Shown here: piece by piece, positions 18,060 to 60,662 of the stretch
Layout: every line of letters starts with the position of its first letter
Numbering within the stretch: position 1 is the stretch's first letter
Assembly: GCA_032622095.1 (NCBI GenBank)
Contig: CP136061.1
Coordinates: 21,702,991 to 21,766,990, forward strand
Length of the DNA stretch: 64,000 nt
Direction: 5' to 3'
Source: Siphonodentalium dalli
Taxonomy: Eukaryota > Mollusca > Scaphopoda > Gadilida > Siphonodentaliidae
The notes under the pieces: generated by a model
The model's input: only the letters and a program-made list of their open reading frames with translations
Database searches by the model: none
Told to the model about the DNA's origin: nothing
Position numbers and translations under genes: made by a program

Positions 18060-18960
18060 TAAGTTACTTGGGTTATAATCTGGATAATTCTTAGTTTAAA
18101 AAGGGCCATATCTCTGGTATAACAAATTGGATCTAACCCATATTCAAACTCGTTCTGTATTTTGAGTTGAGAAACTCACATACCAAATTTGGTTCCTATC
18201 AGATGAAAAATGGTTGATTTATCGAAGTACATGTATGTGTGATTCATATGTCAAAGGACCATAACACCATTAAAAAAAATCAGATCAAACCCATATTCGA
18301 AATTAATCTGTATGTTGGTCTGAGAAACTCATACACCAAATTTGGTTCCAATCAGATAAAAAATGTTTGAGTTATGGCAGAATTCATGAATTCTAAGTCG
18401 AAAAAGGGCCATAACTCCGTAAAAAAAACTCCGATCAAACCCATATTCGAACTCGATCTGTATTTTGGGTCGAGAAACTCACATACGAAATTTGGTTCCG
18501 ATCAGATAAAAAATGTTTGAGTTATGGCAGAATTCATTAATTCTAAGTCGAAAAAGGGCCATAACTCCGTAAAAAAAACTCCGATCAAACCCATATTCGA
18601 ACTCGATCTGTATTTTGGGCCGAGAAACTCACATACCAAAGTTGGTTCCGATCAGATAAAAAATGTTTGAGTTATGGCAGAATGCGTGAATTCTAAGTCG
18701 AAAAAGGGCCATAACTCTGTCAAAAAAAGTTGGATCAAACCCATATTCGAACTCGATCTGTATTTTGGGCTGAAAACCCCATATACAAAATTTGGTTTTG
18801 ATCAGGTAAAAAATGTTTGAGTTATCGCATTACACGTAAAGTGTCTACGGACGGACAGACGGACGGACAGACGGACGGACGGACAGACGGCTCGACGCAC
18901 GACGAGTGGTCAATCCGGACAACGACACTATGTTTACCATACATGGTATGGGTAAACATA
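18060..18960 (+). mobile_element. Tandem-cored HINE/pearl-like element, 150-bp units
   Basis: Units repeat every 150 bp (AAAAAGGGCCATAACTC at about 18391, 18541 and 18691), with ATCAAACCCATATTCGAACT and CAGATAAAAAATGTTTGAGT in each. The array ends in a GGACAGACGGAC tail and a hairpin TTTACCATAC-ATG-GTATGGGTAAA. A single degraded unit is present near 26715-26895. The left boundary is uncertain. Confidence 0.6.
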
Positions 18961-21437: not shown

Positions 21438-22345
21438 AAGTGTCAATTTAAATGGCGCGATAAGGAATGCCGAAAGTTTAAATGTCTAAGTAATACCAGA
21501 GGTCAATCCAATAAGAAGTTTGGGATCAATTGAATTTAAAATGTTGGCTGTAGAACATGCCATAATATTTAGGATGCAAAGTGTAAAATCCATTGATGGC
21601 TACCATCTGAAGATTCGTATAAAGTTTGGTGATGATCGGATGAGGGCAGTGGCCTGTAAAGGTGTACTGAAGGATTTAGTAATGCAAATAGTAAAATCCA
21701 AGATGGCCACTGGCGCCCATATTTTTCAACTTCAATTCTGAAAATTTTTATGCCCCCCCCCCCCCCCATCTACTAGTATTAGTCACCCAGAAGATCTGTA
21801 TGAAGCGGGTGAGAGATGTGGGCTGTAGAGTGTCCCAAAGGATTTAGTCATGCAGTCCAGTAAAATCCAAGATGGCCACTGGTGGCCATGTTTTCTACGA
21901 AATTCGGAAACATTTGGTGTTTTCCCTCTAGTGGTCACCCAAAAGATCCATATGAAGTTTGGTGACAATCGGATGAGGGATGTGGTCAGTATGGTGTGCC
22001 AAAGGATTTAGTCATGCAAAGAGCAAAATCTAAGATGGCTGCCAGTGGCCATGTTTTTTATTGAACATTTTTCAATTTCCCATCTAGATATTATCCTAAA
22101 CATGTCCATTAATTTTCAAAAGAATATTCCAATAAATGCGGGCCACAGGGTATGCTGATGGATTCAAATTTTAAATCAAAGATGGCTACTGGCAGCCATT
22201 TTTTTTTTATTTTGGAAAAATCAATATCTCCCATCCAGAGGTCACCCCGAAGATCCTTATGAAGTTTTGTGGTGATCGTATGAAGAATGTGGCATGTAGG
22301 CTGTGACGAAGGATTTAGTCATGCAAAGAGTAGAAGCCAAGATTC
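21438..22345 (+). mobile_element. Diverged tandem-cored HINE-like element
   Basis: Degenerate ~165-bp units contain AAATCCAAGATGGCCACTGG and GGATTTAGTCATGCAAAGAG, related to the array at 32837-35451. The left part has AAAGTGTCAATTTAAATGGC, like the 5' end of that element. A short poly-C lies at about 21753-21767. The 3' end is not clear. Confidence 0.55.
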
Positions 22346-26519: not shown

Positions 26520-27869
26520 GAGAAATGAACAATGGACTATTCCTTGTAGACTCTGGTAGTTGTTTAGCTAATGTCATGTCTTGTAATGACAGATGATAAA
26601 CTGGTCTGAAGCAAGCAGTATTCAGCAAGAGGATCGGGTGACCACACTATGATAAATTGGCTTTTTCAATAATACAGGCTAGAGTGTCCTCTTAAAAATT
26701 AATAGTGCATAGCAAAGGGGTGTGAATTATAAAGGGCCATAACTCTGTTAAAATATATCGGATCAAACCCATATTTTAACTTGATCTGTATATAAGCGTC
26801 AAAAATTCATATACCAAATTTGGTGTTGATCAGATGAAAAATGTTTGAGTAATCCTGTCTTGGATGAATTCTATATCAAAACAAGAGTGGAAGGGGTTAA
26901 ATAAACAATACCAAAATCCATACAGATGAAGAACATGCTAAGAAAAATCTAGGTAAGAAATATGAGGCTGTGATGTGTCCTAAACAAAAATTAAAGGTCA
27001 AAATGCAAAAATTAAATTTTTTGTTTTTAAAGTTATGTCCCTGGCTCTGCCCCTATTTGACCCAGTGACCCCATTTGAACAAATCTGAACCCCAGTCACC
27101 CAAGGTATATCTGTACCAAATATAAGCTAAATCGGCCAAATATTTTTTTAGAAGAAGTCATTGTAATAATCACTATGAGTTATGGCCCTGGTTTCTCAAC
27201 TAATTGACCGGGTGACCTCATTTGAACAAATCTGAACACCAGTCACCCAAGGACTCTCCATACCAAATATTAGCTAAATTGGCCCAATGGTTATGGACAA
27301 GAAGTTGTTGTAAGAATTACTATGGAGGAATAGAGTTATGGCCCTTGTTTCGCAACTATTTGACCCAGTGACCTCATTTGAACAAATCTGAATGTGATTC
27401 ACCTAGGGAACATCCACACCAAATATGAACACGTTAAGTCTAACGGTTCGGGACGAGAAGATGATTGTTGACGGACGGATGGACGGACGGACGGACGGTC
27501 AGACGGACGGACGGACGGACGACGGACGAGGAGTGATGACTATAGCTCCACCGGAGACTTCGTCTCAGGTGAGCTAAAAACCATACAAATATGGATATCA
27601 TTGGAACCGGCTCATTGACCACATTGTGATAGTTATAGTTATGCCCTGTGCCAATGCATTCTCTTATATATGCGAGTCGACCATAGGTCGCCTCGCATAT
27701 ATAAGAGAATGCATTGGCCTAAAATTTTATCTTACATTCTTTAACAATTTTATAATTTTTAATGTGTTAAGCCAATGCATTCTCTTATATATGCGAGGCG
27801 ACCTATGGTCGACTCGCATATATAAGAGAATGCATTGGCACAGGGCCGTTCTGTTGGGTAAAGGGTTGA

Positions 27870-30551: not shown

Positions 30552-31836
30552 TTTTGTCAATGAAACTATAGCTCAAATTGGAGGGTGGATAATTTCATGT
30601 GTTACAGTCGTCAATAGAGTGATTAGGAATGCGGAAAGTTGAAATGTCTGAGTAATACTAGATGCCAACTTGTAGAGATAAATACATATAGTAAAATCCA
30701 AGATGACCGCTGGCGGCCATGTTTACCAATGAAATTCCAAATTATTTGATAGTTCCCATCTAGTGGTCACCCTGAAGATCAATAAGAAGTTTGGTGACAA
30801 TCAGATGAGGGATGTGGTCTGTAGGGTGTCAGGGCCTGACCCAGCCCGTTTTCGACTCCCGTATGCCGGGTTTGGGGACATTGAGTTTGGGCGCCAAACA
30901 AATTGAAGGCAAATTTTTTTTTTTTTTTTTTATAAAATTCAGGTCCCAATTCATATTATAACAAGATACACAGCATTTATGTATTTATATATATTGACAC
31001 AAGACATTTAAGTTTACAAAAAGATTTAAGTTTAACAGTTTGAATCATACTGTAAAGTATGTTTGGTTCTATCTAGCTTTCATCTGTGAAAACTTCAAAT
31101 AGTTCAGGTTTGTTACCATTCAGCCTTCAGACTTTAGTATTTCAATCAAATTAAAGCGAAATTACACAATACAGTATAGGAACAGTGACATTTTTGATCA
31201 AATCAACCTGGTTATCAGGTGGGATCTCATAATACCAAATGAATAATTAACGTAGAGATTAGTTCTAATTACTAGGGCCCTAACATATACTGGTATATCA
31301 ATTAGAAACAAATAGAACAACACAACATAATTTTGAGAGTGTTTAACTACAAACCTAGAAATAAGAAATAATGAAAAATGTTGCAGGACTATTCATTCTA
31401 TCTTTTTCATCTCAGTCATACAATGGGGCATATTATACATTATTAGATTATATTATGCATTATTATGATAATATATTAATCTGTTATCATTATGTGTGAT
31501 TGTTTAATTCTGTTAAAAACAATGTTATCTTGTAAGTTGAAATAAATATGTTGGTTCATTGTGTCTTTTCTTTTGTGTATAAATATAAATTGACATCATG
31601 TATTAAATGAATTTTGTTTTCTAGCTTAAGTGACTCTGGTCATATTAATAGCTATTGAAAGTATAAAATTCTCTTTGGTTAAAAAATGAAAATCACCCTT
31701 CAGATATGCCCAAGATCACTCTCATACTCTCACCGGCTCCTGCCTTCGGCTGTTGGCGATGACCTTTGGTCATCGGGAGGTGTCCCCAAATAAAACCTGG
31801 ATCAGGCCCTGGGAGTACCAAAGGATTTAGTATAAG
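30552..31836 (+). mobile_element. HINE-like element interrupted by a CAGGG transposon
   Basis: The 5' end TTTTGTCAATGAAACTATAG then CTCAAATTGG resembles the 5' end of the element at 32837. One AAATCCAAGATGACCGCTGG unit follows. The body resumes after 31811 as GGAGTACCAAAGGATTTAG, then degenerates. Confidence 0.6.
30830..31811. mobile_element. 982-bp non-autonomous element with CAGGGCCTGA ends
   Basis: Terminal inverted repeats CAGGGCCTGACCCAG and CTGGATCAGGCCCTG. The flanks GGTGT / GGAGT are a likely 5-bp duplication with one change: removing the element restores GTAGGGTGT.CCAAAGGATTT, as in the sister array near 21826. CAGGG ends suggest a hAT relative, but 5 bp is not the usual hAT size, so the class is open. 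It is non-coding and very A/T-rich. Confidence 0.65.
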
Positions 31837-32386: not shown

Positions 32387-32836
32387 GCCCCTTCAGCTGA
32401 CACTCTCTCAATGATGGAAATCTCCGAGGGAACCCCAAGGTCATTTCTAATTTTAAACTATTTTGGAGTGGAACTTGAAACTGTTTGTTAAATATAATAA
32501 TTAATAATATTAAATCTATATACTATAGAAATACCAGTTGGGCAAGTAAACATTTTGTGATCTGGATTGTCATTGGCAGATCAACCGAACGAAATTAGAC
32601 AGTACGAATGTTCATGCCATACTGATACACACATTCACCCATTCTGAGTTTATATAATCATATTCCGTATTTTTTTCTTAAAATGCTGGTGTATTCAGAT
32701 TGTTACTATCTTTCCCCACTTACCAGAAAATGACTGTTAGTTACTCAAATATTCATTCAGGTCTAAGTGGTCGGGATTCCTCAGCATTTTTGAGAAAACC
32801 ACCCAATCACGAATAGCCAACCAGTGATAATCTGAA

Positions 32837-35451
32837 TGAAAGTGTCAATGACACTGTAGCTCAACTTGGAAAGGGAATAATTTAATGTATTACAGTCAAT
32901 GGAGCCATTAGGAATGTGGAAAGTTGAATATCTAATACATGTTTATAGACATGAAGAGAAAAGTAAAATCCAAGATGGCTGCTGGCGGCCTTGTTTTCGG
33001 CCGAATGACCCCAAAATGAGTCGTTCCCATCTACATGTCATCGTTAACATCCATGACAAATTTTATGACAATCAGACTAAAGGTACGACCTGTAGCCCAT
33101 GCTAAAGAATTTAGTCATACAAAGAGTAAAATCCAAGATGGCTGCTGGCGGCCATGTTTTTTGGCCGAATGATCCCACAATGACTTGTTCCCATCAACAT
33201 GTCATTATTAACATTCATGACAAATTTTATGATGATCAGACTAAAGGTATGACATGTAGCCCGTGCTAAAGAATTTAGTCATACAAAGAGTAAAATCCAA
33301 GATGGCTGCTGGCGGCCATGTTTTCTGCCGATTGACCCCAAAATGAGTCGTTCCCATCTACATGTCATCGTTAACATCCATGACAAATTTTATGATGATC
33401 AGACTAAAGGTACGACCTGTAGCCCATGCTAAAGAATTTAGTCATACAAAGAGTAAAATCCAAGATGGCTGCTGGCGGCCATGTTTTTGGGCCGAATGAC
33501 CCCAAAATTACTCGTTCCCATCTACATGTCAATATTATCATCCATGACAAATTTCATGATCATCAGACAAACAGTACGACCTGTGGCCCGTGCTAATGGA
33601 TTAAATTTTTTAATCCAAGATGGCCACTGGCGGCCATGTTTTTTGTCCGAATGACCCCAAAATAACTCGTTCCCATCTACATTCCAATTTCAACAACCAT
33701 GAGAAATTTTATGATGATCAGACTAAAGGTACGACCTGTAGCCCGTACTAAAGGATTTAGTCATACAAAGAGTAAAATCCAAGATGGCTGCTGGCGGCCA
33801 TGTATTTTGGCCGAATGACCCCAAAATGACTAGTTCCCATCTACATGTCATTGTTAACATCCATGACACATTTCATGATGATCAGACTAAAGGTACGACC
33901 TGCAGCCCGTGCTAAAGGATTTAGTCATACAAAGAGTAAAATCCAAGATGGCTGCTGGCGGCCATGTTTTTTGGCCGAATGACCCCAAAATTACTCGTTC
34001 CCATCTACATGTCATTGTTAACATCCATGACACATTTTATGATGATCAGACTAAAGGTACGACCTGCAGCCCGTGCTAAAGAATTTAGTCATACAAAGAG
34101 TAATATCCAAGATGGCTGCTGGCGGCCATGTTTATTGGCCGAATGACCCCAAAATTACTCGTTCCCATCTACATGTCAATATTATCATCCATGACAAATT
34201 TCATGGTGATCAGACGAACAGTACGACCTGTGGCCCGTGCTAATGGATTAAATTTTGAAATCCAAGATGGCTGCTGGCGGCCATGTTTTTTGTCCGAATG
34301 ACCCCAAAATGACTCGTTCCCATCTACATTCCAATTTCAACAGCCATGACAAATTTTATGATGATCAGACTAAAGGTACGACCTGTAGCCCGTGCTAAAG
34401 GATTTAGTCATACAAAGAGTAAAATACAAGATGGCTGCTGGCGGCCATGTTTTTTGGCCGAATGACCCCAAAATGACTCGTTCCCATCTACATGTCATTA
34501 TTAACATTCTTGACAAAATTTATGATGATCAGACTAAAAGTAGGACCTGTAGGCTGTGCTAAAGGATTTAGTCATACAAAGAGTAAAATCCAAGATGGCT
34601 GCTGGCGGCCATGTTTATTGGCCGAATGACCTCAAAATTACTCGTTCCCATCTACATGTCAATATTATCATCCATGACAAATTTCATGGTGATCAGACGA
34701 ACAGTACGACCTGTGGCCCGTGCTAATGGATTAAATTTTGAAATCCAAGATGGCTGCTGGCGGCCATGTTTTTTGTCCGAATGACCCCAAAATGACTCGT
34801 TCCCATCTACATTCCAATTTCAACAGCCATGACAAATTTTATGATGATCAGAATAAAGGTACGACCTGTAGCCCGTGCTAAAGGATTTAGTCATACAAAG
34901 AGTAAAATACAAGATGGCTGCTGGCGGCCATGTTTTTTGGCCGAATGACCCCAAAATGACTCGTTCCCATCTACATGTCATTATTAACATTCTTGACAAA
35001 ATTTATGATGATCAGACTAAAAGTACGACCTGTAGCCCGTGCTAAAGAATTTAGTCATACAAAGAGTAAAATCCAAGATGGCTGCTGGCGGCCATGTTTT
35101 TGGGCTGAATGACCCCAAAATTACTCGTTCCCATCTACATGTCAATATTAACATCCATGACAAATTTCATGAAGATCAGACAAACAGTACGGCCTGTAGC
35201 CCGTGCTAATGGATTGAATTTTGAAATCCAATATGGCCACTGGCGGCCATGTTTTTTTTCCGAATGACCCCAAAATTAATTATTCTGGTCTAAATGTTGA
35301 TGTCAACAGCTATGACAAATTTCATAATGATCCGACGAAAGGTACGACCTGTAGCCTGCATTGTTGACGCCTTACGTACACACGTACACACAGACGACGG
35401 ACGACAAAGCCATGGCAATAGCTCAAACTTTACAAAGTAAAGTTGAGCTAA
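32837..35451 (+). mobile_element. 2.6-kb HINE/pearl-like element with ~165-bp tandem core
   Basis: About 14 units of roughly 165 bp, each with AAATCCAAGATGGCTGCTGG, CGGCCATGTTTTTTGGCCG and GATTTAGTCATACAAAGAG. The 5' end folds as AGTGTC-AAT-GACACT then GTAGCTCAACTT. The 3' end folds as ACTTTAC-AAA-GTAAAGT and finishes TTGAGCTAA, so GCTCAA and TTGAGC are subterminal inverted repeats. Exact ends come from the unfilled duplicate at 39678/39679: insertion is between A and T with no target duplication, as Helitrons do. No Rep/helicase is encoded. Confidence 0.85.
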
Positions 35452-35673
35452 TAATAGGGGTTACGGGTGCGAGTAAACGGACATCGGATGTGCAGAAACT
35501 GGCTCTATTAACTACAAGTGCTAACTCCTTTGCATAACTATATGCAACTAAAATAAAAAAAATTCAAGTAGGGGGTGGTGGGTACCTTGAGATAGGAATG
35601 AAATTGTTTGGGCCTTGTGTCAGCAAATTTTTTCCAGATCCCCCCCTCCACACTGGTGATGTTGCGAATATGC

Positions 35674-39334: not shown

Positions 39335-41830
39335 AGTTTGTTAAATCAATATACTATAGTAATACTAGTTGGGCAAGTAAAAATTTTGTGATCTGGATTG
39401 TCATTGGCAGATGATTTGAACGAAATTTCACAGTACAATTTTTTATGCCACATACACATTCACACATTCTGAATTTATATAATCATATTCCGTATTTTTT
39501 CCTTGAAATGCTGGTGTATTCAGATTGTTTCTATCTTTCCCCACTTACCAGAAAATGGCTGTTAGTTCCTCGAATGTTCATTCAGATCTAAGTGGCGGGG
39601 ATTCCTCAGCATTTTAGGAGAAAACCAACCAATCTACAAATAGTTCATTCACGAATAGCCAACCAGTGATAATCCGAATAATAGGGGTTACGGATGCGAG
39701 TAAATGGACATCGGATGTGCAGAAACTGACTCTACTAACTACAAGTTTTAACTCTTTCACATAACTAGATGATGTAGGAATGGCCATTTCAAACTAAAAT
39801 AATTCTTTTTTCAAGTAGGGGGTGGTGGGTGCCTTGAGATAGGAAAGTATTTGTTTGTGCCTAGTGTCTGTAAATTTTTTCTAGCAGCATACATGTAACT
39901 CAGCGGATCAATGGGAGATAACTCTACCATTATGCATTAGGCCTTAAAAAAAAAAATTAACCGAGTTTCTGCTAACCCGACCGACCCATGTTCAACTGAA
40001 ATTTTATTTTTTTCCTGGACCACCTGGGACCACGGTAATTTCTTTGCTTTCGCCTGTCCAAATATGCAAAATCATCTTCCATTTTCTATTACTTGCAGTC
40101 ATTAATTTAATTCAATCAGTCATTAGTCTAATTAACTGTGAAAATCATGCTCACAAAACCCATGAAAAAAACCATGGTTAATTGGAAACAAACTTCCAAA
40201 AATGCAAATTTTCATCGCTGAACGGACTACCTCGAAAATAGGGATCATTAAACAAAAATAAAACAAAGTCTTTTGGTCCATATTTGGACCTACTATATAT
40301 ACCTTTATTAACTTTGATATGTGAAGGGGTGTTGGTTAATAGAACTTAAATGAGTTTGGACATATATGACAAGTGATTGTTTGTCTGTATTGTTTGTAGA
40401 GGTGCCACGATTATTGATTTTGATAGTCGATAATCGGTTGTCAATAATCGACTATCATCGATTAATATTAACAACATCAGTGGGAAGTATTCCGTAATAT
40501 GGCCTATTGGCTGGGTGCTGGTTAACTCAATAACTGCACGGTCGCTGGTTATTTGAGGCATCGGCTGATGCAATTTTTACGTTAATAAAATGCATCATAA
40601 ACCACTGTTAATGACGAATGAGCACAATGTATTGAATACCAGCACAGTTCTCGGCGATGTTATGGTTATAATAATTGTGAGTTCATTAGAACGAATGTAG
40701 CGATTAATTTCAGATTTATGAATAGCCAAATATACAAACAATATAAAAGTAGGAATGAACGATGGACCGCCGAAATAAAATGTTATGGAAACTATAAGTT
40801 TCATCAAAGTTCCAGAGAGTGGTTAACAATCACAAACGTGTGGCCCAACCCCCAAATTGCAGTACTCAGAACAAGCTAAGCATTTGATAATAGTCAGTTT
40901 CATTCAGCATTCACCACACGATATGCGATAGCTTTTACTAGTAACTTCTAAGTATACATGTACATTTGTACTTATGCAAACAAAGTACACTCACAATTAC
41001 ATTGGGAAGAACATCGCTGATTAAAATGACGTATATATTTGTTCCCTGGTTTTAGAGAGAATGTCAATCAACTTCCCATTGGTCCAATCAGATTCAAGGG
41101 CGAGTGCATTCAGTTCATTGAACACGGTGACAGTCGGCACATTTCAAAGACATAGTGTCACCTTTCATGTATAAATATACAACGACGTCGCAATGTGTTC
41201 AAATCTGCAGTGCCGCCAATTTGAAGAATATACAACGACCCGACAAGAAAACATGTTGCATCATCAAATGAACTGCCGACTGTTTGCAACATATATTAGT
41301 AGTACTCATGTTATTGGAATCTCTTTGATATGTGTTCAAAGGATGTTAACACCTTGGATGTAGATTAAACTGTGTAAAACAAACACGGTATTCAATAATA
41401 CCGGCATTTTCTGACGTCCGAAATAAATAACGCAGATTAATCGATGATGGAAATGGTAATCGATTATCGGCTTTATCAACGGTTAATCGATTAATTTATA
41501 AGATTAATCGTGGCACCCCTAATTGTTTGTAAATTTTGTCTGTCTATTTCAAATAAAATATTGTTTAAACTAAGTGATTGTTTCATACAATTTCTCGGTT
41601 TTACTAACTGGCTGAAGACATCAAATTATCACTAAAACTTTTAGTGTCAGATATAAATCACGGTGGGTCGTCTTCAGCCAATCAGATGATGGTGTACATG
41701 ATTAATAACAGCATCTGTCGTTTGCCTAACTGGTTGCTCTCTCAATCTAGTAGAGGTAATATATTTAATTATTATATTTTAATTAAGTTGAATATTACAT
41801 TGACAGTGATTCCCGGGACTGTGGTTTTAG
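39335..41830. repeat. Segmental duplication, unit 2
   Basis: Second copy of the 32479-39115 segment. Without its own hAT insertion it is about 1.4 kb. It preserves the empty site (CCGAA/TAATAGGGG, 39678/39679) of the 2.6-kb HINE in unit 1. Confidence 0.8.
40389..41529. mobile_element. hAT non-autonomous element 3
   Basis: Element 40397-41521 with TIR TAG(A/G)GGTGCCACGATTA, a perfect 8-bp duplication ATTGTTTG and ATCGATTA/TAATCGAT subterminal repeats. Non-coding. Confidence 0.9.
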
Positions 41831-47173: not shown

Positions 47174-48687
47174 ACTAGCCGATGAGCCCGACGTTGTCCG
47201 GGCTATTCAAAAACCAAATTTCAAGTCGATAGCTCCACCCGTTTCCGAGATCTGGTCTGCGCATGCGCGAAGCTGGCGTCGCACGGGCTCGGCGACCCGA
47301 TAAATTTCGTATCCGGGGCAAGATACATTCACATATCAAATTTCAAGTCGATAGCTCCACCCGTTTTCGAGATCTGGTCTGCGCATGCGCGAAGCTGCGA
47401 CGTTGTCCGGGCTATTCAAAAACCAAATTTCAAGTCGATAGCTCCACCCGTTTCCGAGATCTGGTCTGCGCATGGGCGAAGCTGGCGTCGCACGGGCTCG
47501 GCGACCCGATAAAATTCGTATCCGGGGCAAGATACATTCACATAGCAAATTTCAAGTCGATAGCTCCACCCGTTTCCGAGATCTCGTCTGCGCATGCGCG
47601 AAGCTGGCGTCGCACGGGCTCGGCGACCCGATAAAATTCGTATCCGGGGCAAGATACATTCACATACCAAATTTCAAGTCGATAGCTCCACCCGTTTCCG
47701 AGATCTCGTCTGCGCATGCGCGAAGCTGGCGTCGCACGGGCTCGGCGACCCGATAAAATTCGTATCCGGGGCAAGATACATTCACATACCAAATTTCAAG
47801 TCGATAGCTCCACCCGTTTCCGATATCTCGTCTGCGCATGCGCGAAGCTGGCGTCGCACGGGCTCGGCGACCCGATAAAATTCGTATCCGGGGCAAGATA
47901 CATTCACATACCAAATTTCAAGTCGATAGCTCCACCCGTTTCCGAGATCTCGTCTGCGCATGCGCGAAGCTGGCGTCGCACGGGCTCGGCGACCCGATAA
48001 AATTCGTATCCGGGTGGACCCGACTTCGTCCGGGCTGTTTCCCCTCTGCTTTTCGGCGAATTGCGCGATTTGGCAAATTAATAGGCTTCGTCCGGGCTGT
48101 TTCCCCTCTGCTTTTCGGCGAATTGCGCGATTTGACCTTGAATTGTCCATTTTGAAGGTCAAGGTCAGGTGGGGTCACGATTTGACGCGTCCAAAACACC
48201 GCCCGGACAAAAGTACCCGTCGAAATCCATCCGGGTTTACCCGATTTGACCTCGAATTGATCGTTTTGAAGGTCAAGGTTAGGTCGGGGTCACGATTTGA
48301 CCCATCCAAAACACTCATTGGACAAAAGTAACCCCACGTATAAAATTTCGTCGAAATCCCATCAAAATTCGCGATTTGACCTTGAATTGACCAGATTTCA
48401 AGGTCAAGGTCATGTCGCACGGGCAAACGAAGAGGCTTAAGACACTAATTTTCATCGAAATCCCGTGATACTCGGGCGTTTGACCTTGAAATGACCAGAT
48501 TTCAAGGTAAAGGTCACGTCGCACGGGCAAATTAATAGACCCATGCCAGTCCCCGGCCGAAAGTACCCCCACATAACAAGTTTCATCAAAATTGGGTCGC
48601 CGTTTTCGAGATCATCACACACACACATACACACACCCTCACACACACACACCTCCACACACACATATCTTCCAAAATATATAATAG
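47174..48687 (+). repeat. 122-bp tandem array in a transposon-like repeat
   Basis: Starts ACTAGCCGATGAGCCCGACG, then repeats a 122-bp unit (TCCACCCGTTTCCGAGATCT, GCGAAGCTGGCGTCGCACGG, CGACCCGATAAAATTCGTAT), with starts near 47263, 47385, 47472 (after an internal restart), 47594, 47716, 47838 and 47960. Downstream are GATTTGACC...AAGGTCAAGGTCA units like 15930-16180 and a (CA)n tract. GC content is far above the background. Overlapping open frames on both strands come from the stop-poor unit and its non-multiple-of-3 length and are not taken as genes. Confidence 0.8.
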
Positions 48688-52528: not shown

Positions 52529-53128
52529 GTAAGTTGTATATTTATTAATAATTTTGTGAAGGTTCCTTTACAGACTGGGGCTTCAAGTTAGTTCATATAA
52601 CATTATGTTATGTCCTTATGCGATTGACTTCAGGCAGAAAACCCCCCAAAAATGAATATGACTACCCAACCCAGGGACAACATCTGACCCAATGAACCCT
52701 GTAGGCCTACAGTCCAAACAGCAGGGATCTAAATGGGGGGGGGGGTCCAATTTCCAACTGCACCCCCTGTTTAGAAACATGGACGCTTGCGGCAATCTTG
52801 GATTTTACATTTGAACTCATTGGCACACCCTGCAGCTAATATTTACAGATGCAGGGATATTACTCTTTGCATCACAAAATACTTTGGCATGCCCTACAGC
52901 CAACATGTTTCATTCAATTGATCAAAAAATTCTTATGGCTTTTCGGTTTGACATCTGGTATTATTTAACCATTTAAAATTTCCGCATTCATTATCGCCCC
53001 TTTGACTGTAATGTAAGTAGGCCTAGGACATTTTCTCCTCCCCAAGTTGAGCTACATTTCATTGACCATTTTATTTTCACTTCATTTTTGTATGCAGACA
53101 ATTATTACATTGTGATAGAATAATTTAC
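52529..53128. other. AASS intron 1, unassigned part
   Basis: Contains a short poly-G (about 52736-52745) and a weak TTGGATTTTACATTTG / GGCACACCCTGCAGCTAA repeat related to the HINE cores on the opposite strand. No exon. Confidence 0.4.
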
Positions 53129-55232
53129 TTGTGTCTAACGTCATCAACTAACTGGCATATAATAAATGGTAAAATGTTCATCAACAAAAGCTTGATTAGA
53201 AAAGATGTTTATTTTATGAATGATCTTGTGGATGCCACCTCCACCTTTCTGGATTATAACACATTTTGTCAAAACTATGACATTAAAATTCCTTTCACCA
53301 CCTACCAGGGTCTTTTAGCAGCTTTACCTAAAACATGGAAAACATGCATAAGGGAAAATCAATTGAGACTCTGCACCGTGACATCCAAAAATGTTGAGAA
53401 ATTGAAAATTTGCGAAAAAGCATGCAGAACCTTTTATCCCAGTTTTTTGAGTCATTCCATCACATTTCCTGAAATATCTAAAAAAAAATTGCAGGAAAGA
53501 CTTGGGCAAACTTTCATGCCCACAGAATGGAAATCAATTTACAAAATGGCAAGTAGGATTACTAATGACACTAGTCTATTGTCTTTTCAATTCAAAATAA
53601 ATCATGATATTTTACCGGTATGTACTACCTAACTCCAAACTTATGAAATGTAAAATATCAGAAACAGAAATGTGCTCTTTTTGTCACACAGGAAAAGAAA
53701 CATGCCTACATCTATTTTATGAATGTCCGGTAACAAAATCTGTATTATTAGAATTTCAGCAGACTATTAAAGATAAATGTAACCTGCAATTTGAAGTGTC
53801 ACAAAATAATATTATATTTGGTGTACCTGATGGAAATCCAAATGAAGGAATAATAGAAATTGCTATACTTCTATTAAGAGATATATCTACTCATGTAAGA
53901 TAAGAACTATTAACCCTAATTCACATGGTTTTACAGAATGGTTAAAAACTTATAAGACAATTGAAACTGTGCCATTAAAGGGCTATTCCACAAAAAAGAT
54001 ATTTTATTCCAAGAGAGATGGAATATAATTGATGAATTATTTTTAGCATAAACGTGAGAGATGAAAAACCCACAAAAGTATCAACGGTGCAGAGTCTGAA
54101 TTGATCAATATCTTATACCATCTATTATAGACTATACTCATTCATATAAAATGATTTGAATATGTTTATTTCAGCCTATGACAAAACACTTTATATTTTA
54201 TAAGAAGAGAGGTGACTAAAAAGTCCTTCCTATTCAAGCCATAAGGAAATAGCATTCTGAGTAAAATGTAAAGTGTGTTTCCCTAATTTCGCAGACTTTG
54301 GTGTTTGTGTCATTATCTGAGTCCCCAGGCAGTATATCAATGATTTAGTATGTAAGGTGGGATATACTGTGACCGACTTGGTTGCAGTCCAATGCGACAA
54401 GTGTTGTCTGTCATGTTTGCAGCAGATATAATGTTATAATGAGTCTGTGATGTCATTAACTATCTCCATACAATCGTACAGGATCTCGTTGAAGTGTTCT
54501 CTGGTTATGTCCGGGGTGGGGGCTTTCCCTGGTGGTGTATTGGCGGTTAGCCCTTTGGGGCTTACTCCATTTGGAAGTGCATAATTCTAGGAAGCTGGAC
54601 TGTATGTTCAGTATCATTTCCTTTGCTGTCTTGTTGCCAATGGCTTTATACAGATTGATAATGTCTGTGGATATATCTGCCTTTGTGTAAAAATGGCGGG
54701 TTACAGACCATTATCTGGTGTCTGGTCAGTGCACTTAGTTTGTTCCTTGTTCTCAATAAAGGTAGTTTCAGAGGCACTCTCTAGTAGAGAGTCCATGCTA
54801 GTTTCGATGCTGGTTGGCTGTGATGTGGCCATTAACTGATGGTGGGTAAAGTGAATAAATATAAGGAGAGGTGAGAGGTTAATCTCCAGGGAAGATCACC
54901 ATCAACGAATAATCCTTTGCTAGAAATGGTCTACTAGTTTCGGATTGTTATTATCCTTCGTCAGGACCTGTGGGTGTGAGAAAAATAGGTTGCTGACTCC
55001 GTTTATATAGCCCTTGGTGCGGCATCCTTCCATGTGATTGGTTGAAACCGTATTATATTTTGAAACCATATTATATTTTATCCCACTCCTATTAATATCT
55101 TTGAAATATTTTTTTTATGATTTAACCAAGTGTATGTATTGTGTCCTTGATTCCTCACATGTCTGTATGTATTTATTTGTTTAGACCCGAATAAAAAAAA
55201 ATAAAATAAAAATAAAAAAAAAAAAAAAATTA
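53129..55232 (+). pseudogene. 5'-truncated LINE retrotransposon, 3' end of ORF2
   Basis: The first 167 codons end near FQFKINHDILP. After a frameshift (about 53618) the frame continues KLMKCKISETEMCSFCHTGK and HLFYECPVTKS. C-x2-C-x(9)-H-x4-C is the zinc knuckle (zf-RVT) at the C terminus of non-LTR retrotransposon ORF2 proteins. The reverse-transcriptase core is missing, so the copy is 5' truncated. An A-rich tail at about 55191-55230 is a likely 3' end; part of the segment between is a different, Penelope-like fragment. Inactive, inserted in AASS intron 1. Confidence 0.75.
54937..54964 (-). ncRNA. Hammerhead-ribozyme-like core in Penelope-like fragment
   Basis: On the minus strand CTGACGA (54958-54964) is followed by GGAT-loop-ATCC and GAAAC (54937-54941). 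This is the CUGANGA-stem II-GAAA core of hammerhead ribozymes, which Penelope-like retroelements carry in their terminal repeats. A TATA-like CTATATAAACGG lies about 40-50 bp upstream on the same strand. Stems I and III could not be paired convincingly, so activity is doubtful. Confidence 0.4.
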
Positions 55233-59108: not shown

Positions 59109-60133
59109 TTATGAACTCTCTTGAAATGTCTGATGGATGTTCGTGTGTGAGCAAGATAACACCAACTGCAGTTTTCGGTTTGTCGTTCTTGGACCAATTG
59201 TGTCGTGGTGATTCCATAGCTGGCGGCCATGGCTCCCTTCCACCCAGAACTCGGTGATGTAATCCGTGAACTTGGTGACGTTTTCTTCGAGACCTGTGTT
59301 GCTTGTCGCAGGGTAATCGTCCAGCGCTTCGAACCAGGCATCACCAACCATCTCGACAGGAACCATAGGGAGGGCTAGAGCTCTTCTTATGAGGGTCTTT
59401 TGGTCGTTGCCTTCAGTGTCTTCGTATAGCTGCTGTAGGTGGCATTTCTTAACATTCTTCAGCACTGCTTGGCCGTAATGGAATAGGCATCCTTTCATTG
59501 TAGCTGACGGAAATGTAGCTGCCAGGGCGTTTTGGGCAGCTGTCTCACGTTCCATCACAGAAGATCGTTCCGGCAACAGCTAAATTTTCTAGATTTTCTC
59601 TGGTTGCGAATATCAGAATCTTTTCAGCATGGTTAAATTATAAACATTAATAGAGTTATTACTTGCTTAGTATTCTCTATTCTTTAATAATAATTATAAT
59701 ATATATAATATAACATTACACCAGTTTTACTTTAGTTATTACTTGCTTAGTTTTCTTTCTGAATACTAATATAAAGAGCGTTGCCAGATTAATGAGAATG
59801 CGAAATTAAATTTACTCAGTACATACTTCCTATTTCTTCCTGGTATAGCGTTGTTACTGGCTTGTTACTTGTCTTAACAAGCTTTTTGAGGTCTGCAATC
59901 CAGGAATCTGCTGCTACTTGGTTGAAATCAAGTTCGTGGTTATGGTTGCCGCTGTTGGATATCACCATATCGTTCTCAGTGTTGGTGGTTGCACGGCAGT
60001 CTTTCTTGCAACATCGCCAATGAATTCGATCATTTCTCCTTGATTTAACGGAGAATTTGTAGTCATCATATACCAGATACTTTCCACCTCTAGTATTTGG
60101 AATATAATTTACGTTCACTTGTGTGCTTGCCAT
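59109..60133 (-). pseudogene. Decayed MULE transposon with FLYWCH zinc finger
   Basis: The upstream frame (60133-59816) has GGKYLVYDDYKFSVKSRR, HWRCCKKDCRATTNT and GNHNHE: the C..C...H.H FLYWCH zinc finger. The downstream frame (59576-59109) has NALAATFPSATMKGCLFHYG, QAVLKNV and ...PRTTN, matching the later part of the MULE transposase domain (fP..../gC.FH..QA, then a TNN-like motif). The first catalytic region between them is absent and the frames are separated by stops, so the gene is broken. FLYWCH-MULE fusions are a known transposase arrangement. TIRs not located. Confidence 0.7.
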
Positions 60134-60408
60134 CGAGTTTATGTCAGACCAGGGAATCTAACAGTATATATATTCAGTAGTGAACTCTACTTAAAACACT
60201 GATAATAATTCATAATACATCTTTACAAACAAATAATAAAACGTGTAAAATAAATAAACTGAATGTGGCTCACGCTATTAAACGTTATTCACCACCAACA
60301 GATATGGACTGTGACAACACTGGACCGCAGGTGTTTTGATATGGACTATAATCTCCGTCGGCCAAGTCGTTAATCTCTGCCTGCCGGGTAGACAGGATAT
60401 ACCCGTTA
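60134..60408. other. Unassigned AT-rich DNA
   Basis: Nothing recognised. Confidence 0.35.
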
Positions 60409-60662
60409 TTAGCTGAACTTTACTTTGTAAAGTTTGAGCTATTGCCATGGCTTGGTATCCGCCGTACATGTCTGCATGTGTGAGGCGTCAACAATACAGG
60501 CTACAGGTCGTACCTTTGGTCGGATCATTATAAAATTTAGATGTAGATGGGAACGAGTCATTTTGGGGTCATTCGGAAAAAAAACATGGCCACCAGCGGC
60601 CATCTTGGATTTCAAAATTCAATCCATTAGCATGGGCTACAGGTCATACTGTTCGTCTATTA
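60409..60662 (-). mobile_element. 3' fragment of a HINE-like element
   Basis: Reverse-strand copy of the end of the 32837-35451 family: TTAGCTGAACTTTACTTTGT (terminal CTAA and hairpin), AGCTATTGCCATGGCTTGG, then one core unit with ATGGCCACCAGCGGCCATCT. The 5' part is absent. Confidence 0.8.

Follow-up and report, generated by a model that had tools for sequence, protein, structure and literature searches.

Most of the segment at 32837-35451 of the 64,000-nucleotide stretch of Siphonodentalium dalli DNA analysed here (the window) is a tandem array, which raises the question of whether it is satellite DNA or the inside of a mobile element and, if the latter, of which kind. With a probability of about 0.9, we read it as one young copy, on the minus strand, of a very abundant family of Helentron-associated interspersed elements (HINEs). 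HINEs are a known kind of element, as in oysters and fruit flies, and the family in the window is a further member.

The empty site and the host repeat

The segment interrupts a repeat of which the window holds a second, uninterrupted copy. Aligned to that copy (unit 2, 39341-39881, plus strand), the flanks form the left (32510-32836) and right (35452-35634) parts of unit 1, also on the plus strand. Unit 1 reads ...ATCTGAA|TGAAAGTGTCAATGACACT...AAAGTTGAGCTAA|TAATAGGGG and unit 2 reads ...ATCCGAATAATAGGGG, with the empty site between 39678 and 39679. Identity was 88% over 309 columns for 32510-32816 against 39341-39643, 97% for 32807-32837 against 39649-39679 and 80% over 205 columns for 35452-35634 against 39677-39881. 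The insertion thus sits between GAA and TAATAGGGG of the host repeat, with positions ambiguous by at most three bases because AAT is present on both sides. The exact insertion, its empty site and its coordinates had been proposed in a preliminary description, and the flank alignment bears them out to the base.

The same description had taken the two units for a segmental duplication, whereas the flanks turn out to be a dispersed repeat. Used as a query, the 541-bp unit 2 returned 527 candidates, and among the 42 matches listed of these, unit 2 included, 40 crossed the junction uninterrupted. Ten further copies fetched from the 42 listed matches were all, like unit 2, uninterrupted at the junction; one (L081) had three extra bases there, repeating AAT, and two (L077 and L083) had one altered base directly after it. 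Across these ten copies, unit 2 was closest to L077, on contig C2 (92.6% identity), compared with 88.9% to unit 1. In a tree of the host-repeat copies, unit 1 stood beside the pair of unit 2 and L077 (support 0.98), the pair itself being weak (0.39). A local segmental duplication is ruled out by the dispersal of the host repeat and by the closer kinship of unit 2 to L077 than to unit 1. Judged by sequence comparison, units 1 and 2 are best described as two copies of a dispersed 0.5-kb repeat, a caution that nearby copies of one such repeat can mimic a segmental duplication. The insertion is younger than the split of the two units because its first 164 bp are identical to those of other copies, whereas the host copies differ by 11%. 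The earlier dating therefore stands in a weaker form, with respect to the unit split but not to a segmental duplication.

Copies across the genome

We searched the genome, 2,226,750,531 bases in 9 contigs, for both ends of the segment. A 25-nt pattern of the left end had at least 11,248 exact copies and a 22-nt pattern of the right end at least 5,026, both counts being lower bounds (in each pattern, one flanking base may not be G), and neither reversed pattern occurred at all. The left end (164 bp) matched at 100% identity in the best 40 of 747 candidates, and the right end (100 bp) at 99-100% in the best 40 of 1,483. Twenty of the 40 left-end matches were fetched with ~3.2 kb downstream (8.2 kb for L008). 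The right end was present in 14, all of which read A|TGAAAGTGTC ... GAGCTAA|NAA; in these complete copies the left start is uniform by selection, the right end not. The right end was not found in the other six fetched stretches: the element extends up to the limit of what was fetched in L004, L005 and L014, and its core breaks off sooner in L002, L015 and L019. When 20 right-end matches were fetched with their flanks, using a query that contained the AA, all 20 ended in GAGCTAA followed by NAA. The same ends thus recur in other copies, as the preliminary description had proposed to check.

The distance between the two ends was 1,482-3,125 bp in 13 complete copies, with a core of 8 to 18 monomers, and 8,048 bp in the fourteenth (L008), which is interrupted. 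The additional 4.85 kb in L008 is nested and has inverted arms of 191 nt; that this copy might be a coding version is ruled out, as no open stretch in the additional sequence exceeds 127 aa. Shorter copies also exist, with end pairs only 0.8-1.1 kb apart. Flanks vary between copies but are common to L001 and L003, with the same last bases in L002. Among the 40 identical left ends listed, six cluster in a 2.9-Mb stretch of a single contig (C7:19.07-21.94 Mb); because L001 and L003, two of the three copies fetched from this cluster, share flanks, part of it reflects local duplication or a shared host repeat.

A non-mobile origin, in which a satellite array expanded in place inside one host-repeat copy, would account for a tandem array making up most of the length. 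Non-repetitive ends that are identical at thousands of places, and flanks that differ among the fetched copies, speak against it; the exact empty sites refute it, and we give it next to no chance. The proposal that the true ends of a repeat otherwise taken for satellite DNA had been fixed is therefore upheld, the array being the core of a transposon.

Insertion into other repeats was seen, in one case (L011, C4:75010500-75014089) into the core of another copy, together with a 560-bp tandem duplication that includes an element end. Elsewhere, element ends occur in tandem runs with units of 279 bp (L061), 843 bp (L062) and 633 bp (L063). Rolling-circle concatemers were considered for these runs, but as the units include host flank (L062, L063) or a piece of the core (L061), local tandem duplication fits them better. 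At L062 (C7:64407500-64409500) and at listed places near C7:64.40-64.41 Mb, the 843-bp unit holds the element end plus the same host flank, so that a fragment of the element has given rise to a new local repeat.

The window itself holds four partial or diverged relatives with ends and/or core (21451-22343, 30555-30724, 52777-53066 and 60406-60658), and so, with 32837-35451, at least five members of the family. Arrays of ~150 bp followed by ACGG/GACG microsatellites lie at 18086-18890 and 27031-27528; having the same plan, they are perhaps other HINE families. A further tandem array, with periods of 122 and 209 bp and 97-98% matches, occupies 47189-48014, and ORFs at 59109-59579 (minus strand) and 53066-53632 (plus strand) resemble, by eye, pieces of a MULE transposase and of a retrotransposon protein.

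Target and terminal bases

Because AAT is repeated across the junction, the window site could by itself reflect a short target duplication, of either AA or AAT. For other copies, we joined the two flanks in silico and searched for the uninterrupted form. Seven such chimeras were built and five searched, L016 and L012 being left out. The joined flanks of L017 matched at 100% across the junction in the best 40 of 1,239 candidates; L013 and L009, run in the same query, gave no row among the scored candidates. Among the best 40 of 54 candidates for L020 and L007 together, 32 rows crossed the L020 junction at 94-100% and 8 the L007 junction at 90-96%. The L007 rows were mostly one base longer than the query, and in the two that were fetched the extra base lay off the junction, which was exact. 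For L017, each of the 40 places also gave a second, shorter match, inverted and adjoining the first (40 further rows), which means that its host repeat itself includes an inverted half. This repeat, at 100% over 177 bp in all 40 scored places with its inverted half adjoining, would by its sequence itself be a young, abundant element.

These sites bear on a further reading, in which the element is of the foldback or MITE-like cut-and-paste type, has short inverted repeats and duplicates 2-3 bp of its target (AA, TA or AAT). An inverted 11-mer is indeed common to both ends, and the window site, L020 and L007 are all compatible with a duplication of AA. At L017, however, the left flank ends in TA and the right end reads GAGCT-AA-TAAGG, and the joined form without an extra base was found intact. 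The end bases point the same way. In the first 100 listed places, positions -2,-1 of the left flank were AA in 83, TA in 11, CA in 4 and AT in 2 (A at -1 in 98), so that 17 left ends are not AA, yet each of the last two bases of the element was A in 99 of 100 listed right ends. This difference assigns the AA (TT on the element strand) to the element. In the same 100 right ends, the first host base was A in 56, T in 34, C in 9 and G in 1, followed by A at +2 in 97 and at +3 in 98. The listed places are partly non-independent, with 82 distinct left 8-mers and 57 distinct right 8-mers; counted by these, AA stood at -2,-1 in 69 of 82 and at +4,+5 after GAGCT in 52 of 57. One of the inverted repeats, moreover, lies 20 nt inside its end. 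On the strength of L017 and the end statistics, we reject a MITE or a short target duplication, to which no more than a very slim chance attaches.

Insertion of the HINE family thus entails neither duplication nor loss of target bases, and takes place at TTN^TT as read on the element strand (AA^NAA on the plus strand). The absence of a target duplication had been noted before from the window site; it is L017 and the end-base statistics that establish it, not that site by itself. TTN^TT is sharper than the published 'TT dinucleotide' target, and the parts of the Helentron and HINE literature that we consulted, reached by family and not by motif, held no statement of TTN^TT for Helentrons. We somewhat favour the view that a fixed five-base target TTN^TT together with an element-owned terminal TT is the integration rule of the family.

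Anatomy, class and mobility

The empty sites and the recurrence of the same ends in other copies delimit a complete HINE-type element of 2,615 bp (32837-35451) with minus-strand sense. One base from its 5' terminus lies the 5' subterminal inverted repeat (subTIR) TAGCTCAACTT (35440-35450, minus strand), which with its complementary inverted repeat (IR) forms the arms of a snap-back hairpin (35419-35450, minus strand; -10.5 kcal/mol as DNA, z -4.53, equalled in 0 of 200 shuffles). A short, degenerate GTC-type microsatellite, its bounds set by eye, adjoins this end (35374-35405, minus strand). Tandem Repeats Finder (TRF) and a monomer map place the central array at 32962-35356 (minus strand), with 14.8 copies of a 164-bp monomer; TRF also scored it at periods 319 and 483, and the monomer adjoining the microsatellite end has diverged, with 81% identity to the query monomer. 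The 3' subTIR AAGTTGAGCTA (32857-32867, minus strand) lies 20 nt from the 3' terminus, and the 3' palindrome AGTGTCATTGACACT (32841-32855, minus strand), read in the sequence, 4 nt from it. The subTIRs are an exact inverted match of 11 bp between the two ends, reached in 0 of 5000 shuffles of the outer 45 bp. The palindrome is part of the 25-nt end counted at least 11,248 times in the genome; by energy it is weak and not significant (-3.8 kcal/mol, z -1.58, equalled in 17 of 200 shuffles). On the minus strand the order is 5' TT-AGCTCAACTTTAC-loop-GTAAAGTTTGAGCTA-...-GTC-type microsatellite-tandem core-...-AAGTTGAGCTA-C-AGTGTCATTGACACT-TTCA 3'. No coding capacity is evident in the window copy, whose longest open stretch is 74 aa. 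The satellite-like array is the core, or cargo, of a transposon.

In the published HINE layout, the 5' end is marked by a subTIR, a complementary IR and a GTCY microsatellite, and the other side by a 3' subTIR and then a palindrome, with tandem repeats between, a TT target and no target site duplication (TSD) (PMC4067079, PMC7492417). The window element shows each of these: subTIRs of at least 11 bp near both ends, the complementary IR and a same-side microsatellite (short, and recognized by eye), a palindrome after the 3' subTIR (by sequence, with a folding z of only -1.58), a T-rich/TT target without duplication and no coding capacity. Its subTIR-to-terminus distances, 1 and 20 nt, are both somewhat shorter than the 2-4 and 38-60 nt printed for mite HINEs (PMC4067079). 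Set against this layout, the polarity in the preliminary description is reversed: the CTAA end after a hairpin, given there as the 3' end, is the 5' end. The layout is our one guide to polarity and argues for minus-strand sense, on which CTAA would be the complement of a 5' TTAG and not a Helitron CTRR terminus.

The rolling-circle, Helitron-type behaviour proposed earlier agrees with this anatomy as to rolling circle, but the layout is that of a HINE/Helentron and not of a Helitron. A canonical Helitron on the plus strand would have a 5' TC, a 3' hairpin followed by CTRR and an A^T target. A hairpin does adjoin a CTAA end, a target duplication is absent, and Rep ORFs of the Helitron sort, with the RGLPHAH signature, occur in the genome (L041, L050). 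The canonical Helitron hairpin, though, stands 10-12 bp inside the 3' end, whereas here its arm reaches 35450, one base from the end. The other end starts with TGAAAG, or TTAGC on the opposite strand, instead of TC, and the target AA^NAA has T as its free base in only 34 of 100 listed places, which is not A^T. The two ends have a subTIR in common, which canonical Helitrons are not known to have. A subTIR is given for Helitron2 only (PMC5148889). Finally, published HINEs have their 5' end where subTIR, IR and microsatellite lie together. Ends, target and subTIR lead us to reject the canonical Helitron, which keeps a slim chance.

Among described HINEs, Cg_HINE of the Pacific oyster resembles the window element in its 5' subTIR, complementary IR and GTCY-type microsatellite, in its central array (with oyster monomers of 140-180 bp) and in a 3' subTIR followed by a palindrome; like the window family, it has no TSD, a T-rich target, both orientations and insertions into other repeats (PMC7492417). 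The comparison is by layout, not sequence, and there are differences: oyster arrays have 'mostly up to 5' monomers, against 8-18 in 13 of the 14 complete copies here, and a T-rich target, against the sharper TTN^TT (PMC7492417). The Pearl family of bivalves, likened by description and not by sequence, likewise has HINE architecture and ~160-bp central repeats, up to six of them (PMC7492417, PMC11136912). DINE-1 and the mite HINE/Helentron have subTIRs, a 5' IR, a microsatellite, a 3' stem-loop and a TT target that is left unmodified (PMC4067079). In these, the number of terminal Ts is variable, and whether they belong to the element or the host could not be decided (PMC4067079), whereas in the window family the terminal TT can be assigned because the free base N separates the host TT from that of the element. 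Helitron2/FoHeli of Fusarium likewise has asymmetric terminal inverted repeats, hairpins at its ends and a target motif with a free base (TNAT), and a circular intermediate is reported for it; it differs in having known autonomous copies and termini TCAG... or TGCCT..., and the portions of the source consulted mention no tandem core, against the 164-bp core in the window element (PMC5148889).

Autonomous partners are known for DINE-1 and mite HINEs (PMC4067079), while none for the window family was found in the loci examined; for oyster Cg_HINEs the partner is likewise described as unresolved (PMC7492417). The genome has at least 151 PF14214 (Rep) matches, with the best 150 of 457 candidates scored. 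Two of the seven long Rep ORFs, of 2,739 and 2,590 aa, were scanned for domains: both carry OTU, DUF6570, Helitron_like_N and PIF1, and each also has an endonuclease match that falls short of Pfam's cut-off (E 0.006 and 6e-5). By sequence these OTU-Rep-PIF1 ORFs look Helentron-like. The published Helentron Rep motif 2 was absent, allowing up to 2 substitutions, from four long ORFs checked, and the subTIR was not found, allowing up to one substitution, in the 10 top-scoring PF14214 loci, over 3.5 kb each. None of the seven long-Rep-ORF loci, examined in part, was bounded by HINE ends in the right order. Upstream of the ORF, five of the seven have pieces like the HINE 3' end; as these face the ORF, they look like nested copies and not the ends of the locus itself. 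The pieces all run in the same direction and by alignment represent about four independent insertions; downstream, loci H2 and H8b additionally have the 5' end and core of a HINE. No match to HINE ends was found at the two remaining loci (L073-L076).

At the H1 locus (L053 start, C1:214414025), a HINE 3'-end-like piece is followed by a pyrimidine run and CAG before the ATG of the 2,739-aa ORF, by eye a possible splice acceptor. Behind the ORF (L065, L071), a 1.7-kb unit occurs in tandem, at ~99% to a second locus.

By analogy with known HINEs, the family would be moved by a Helentron partner acting in trans. Its Rep-helicase(-endonuclease) protein may nick the T-rich target as well as the 5' TT of the element through its Rep/Hel(/EN) activities; rolling-circle replication would then peel off one strand as far as the 3' palindrome, and this strand would be joined into the target nick. 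With a single strand transferred into a nick, no target duplication would arise. The tandem core would be carried along, and slippage or unequal exchange would change its length. The 560-bp (L011) and 279-bp (L061) tandem duplications could also be products of unequal exchange between cores; the 843-bp (L062) and 633-bp (L063) duplications need another cause because host flank is included.

Exact empty sites at four targets show that a satellite-like array is carried in this genome as transposon cargo. More than 11,000 exact ends provide a large data set for the question of where Helentrons cut. If general, the integration rule favoured here would settle the ownership of the terminal Ts of Helentrons, whether by element or by host. 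It would also imply that the nick is site-specific and leaves one base free, as opposed to the indiscriminate cutting in T runs proposed earlier (PMC4067079).
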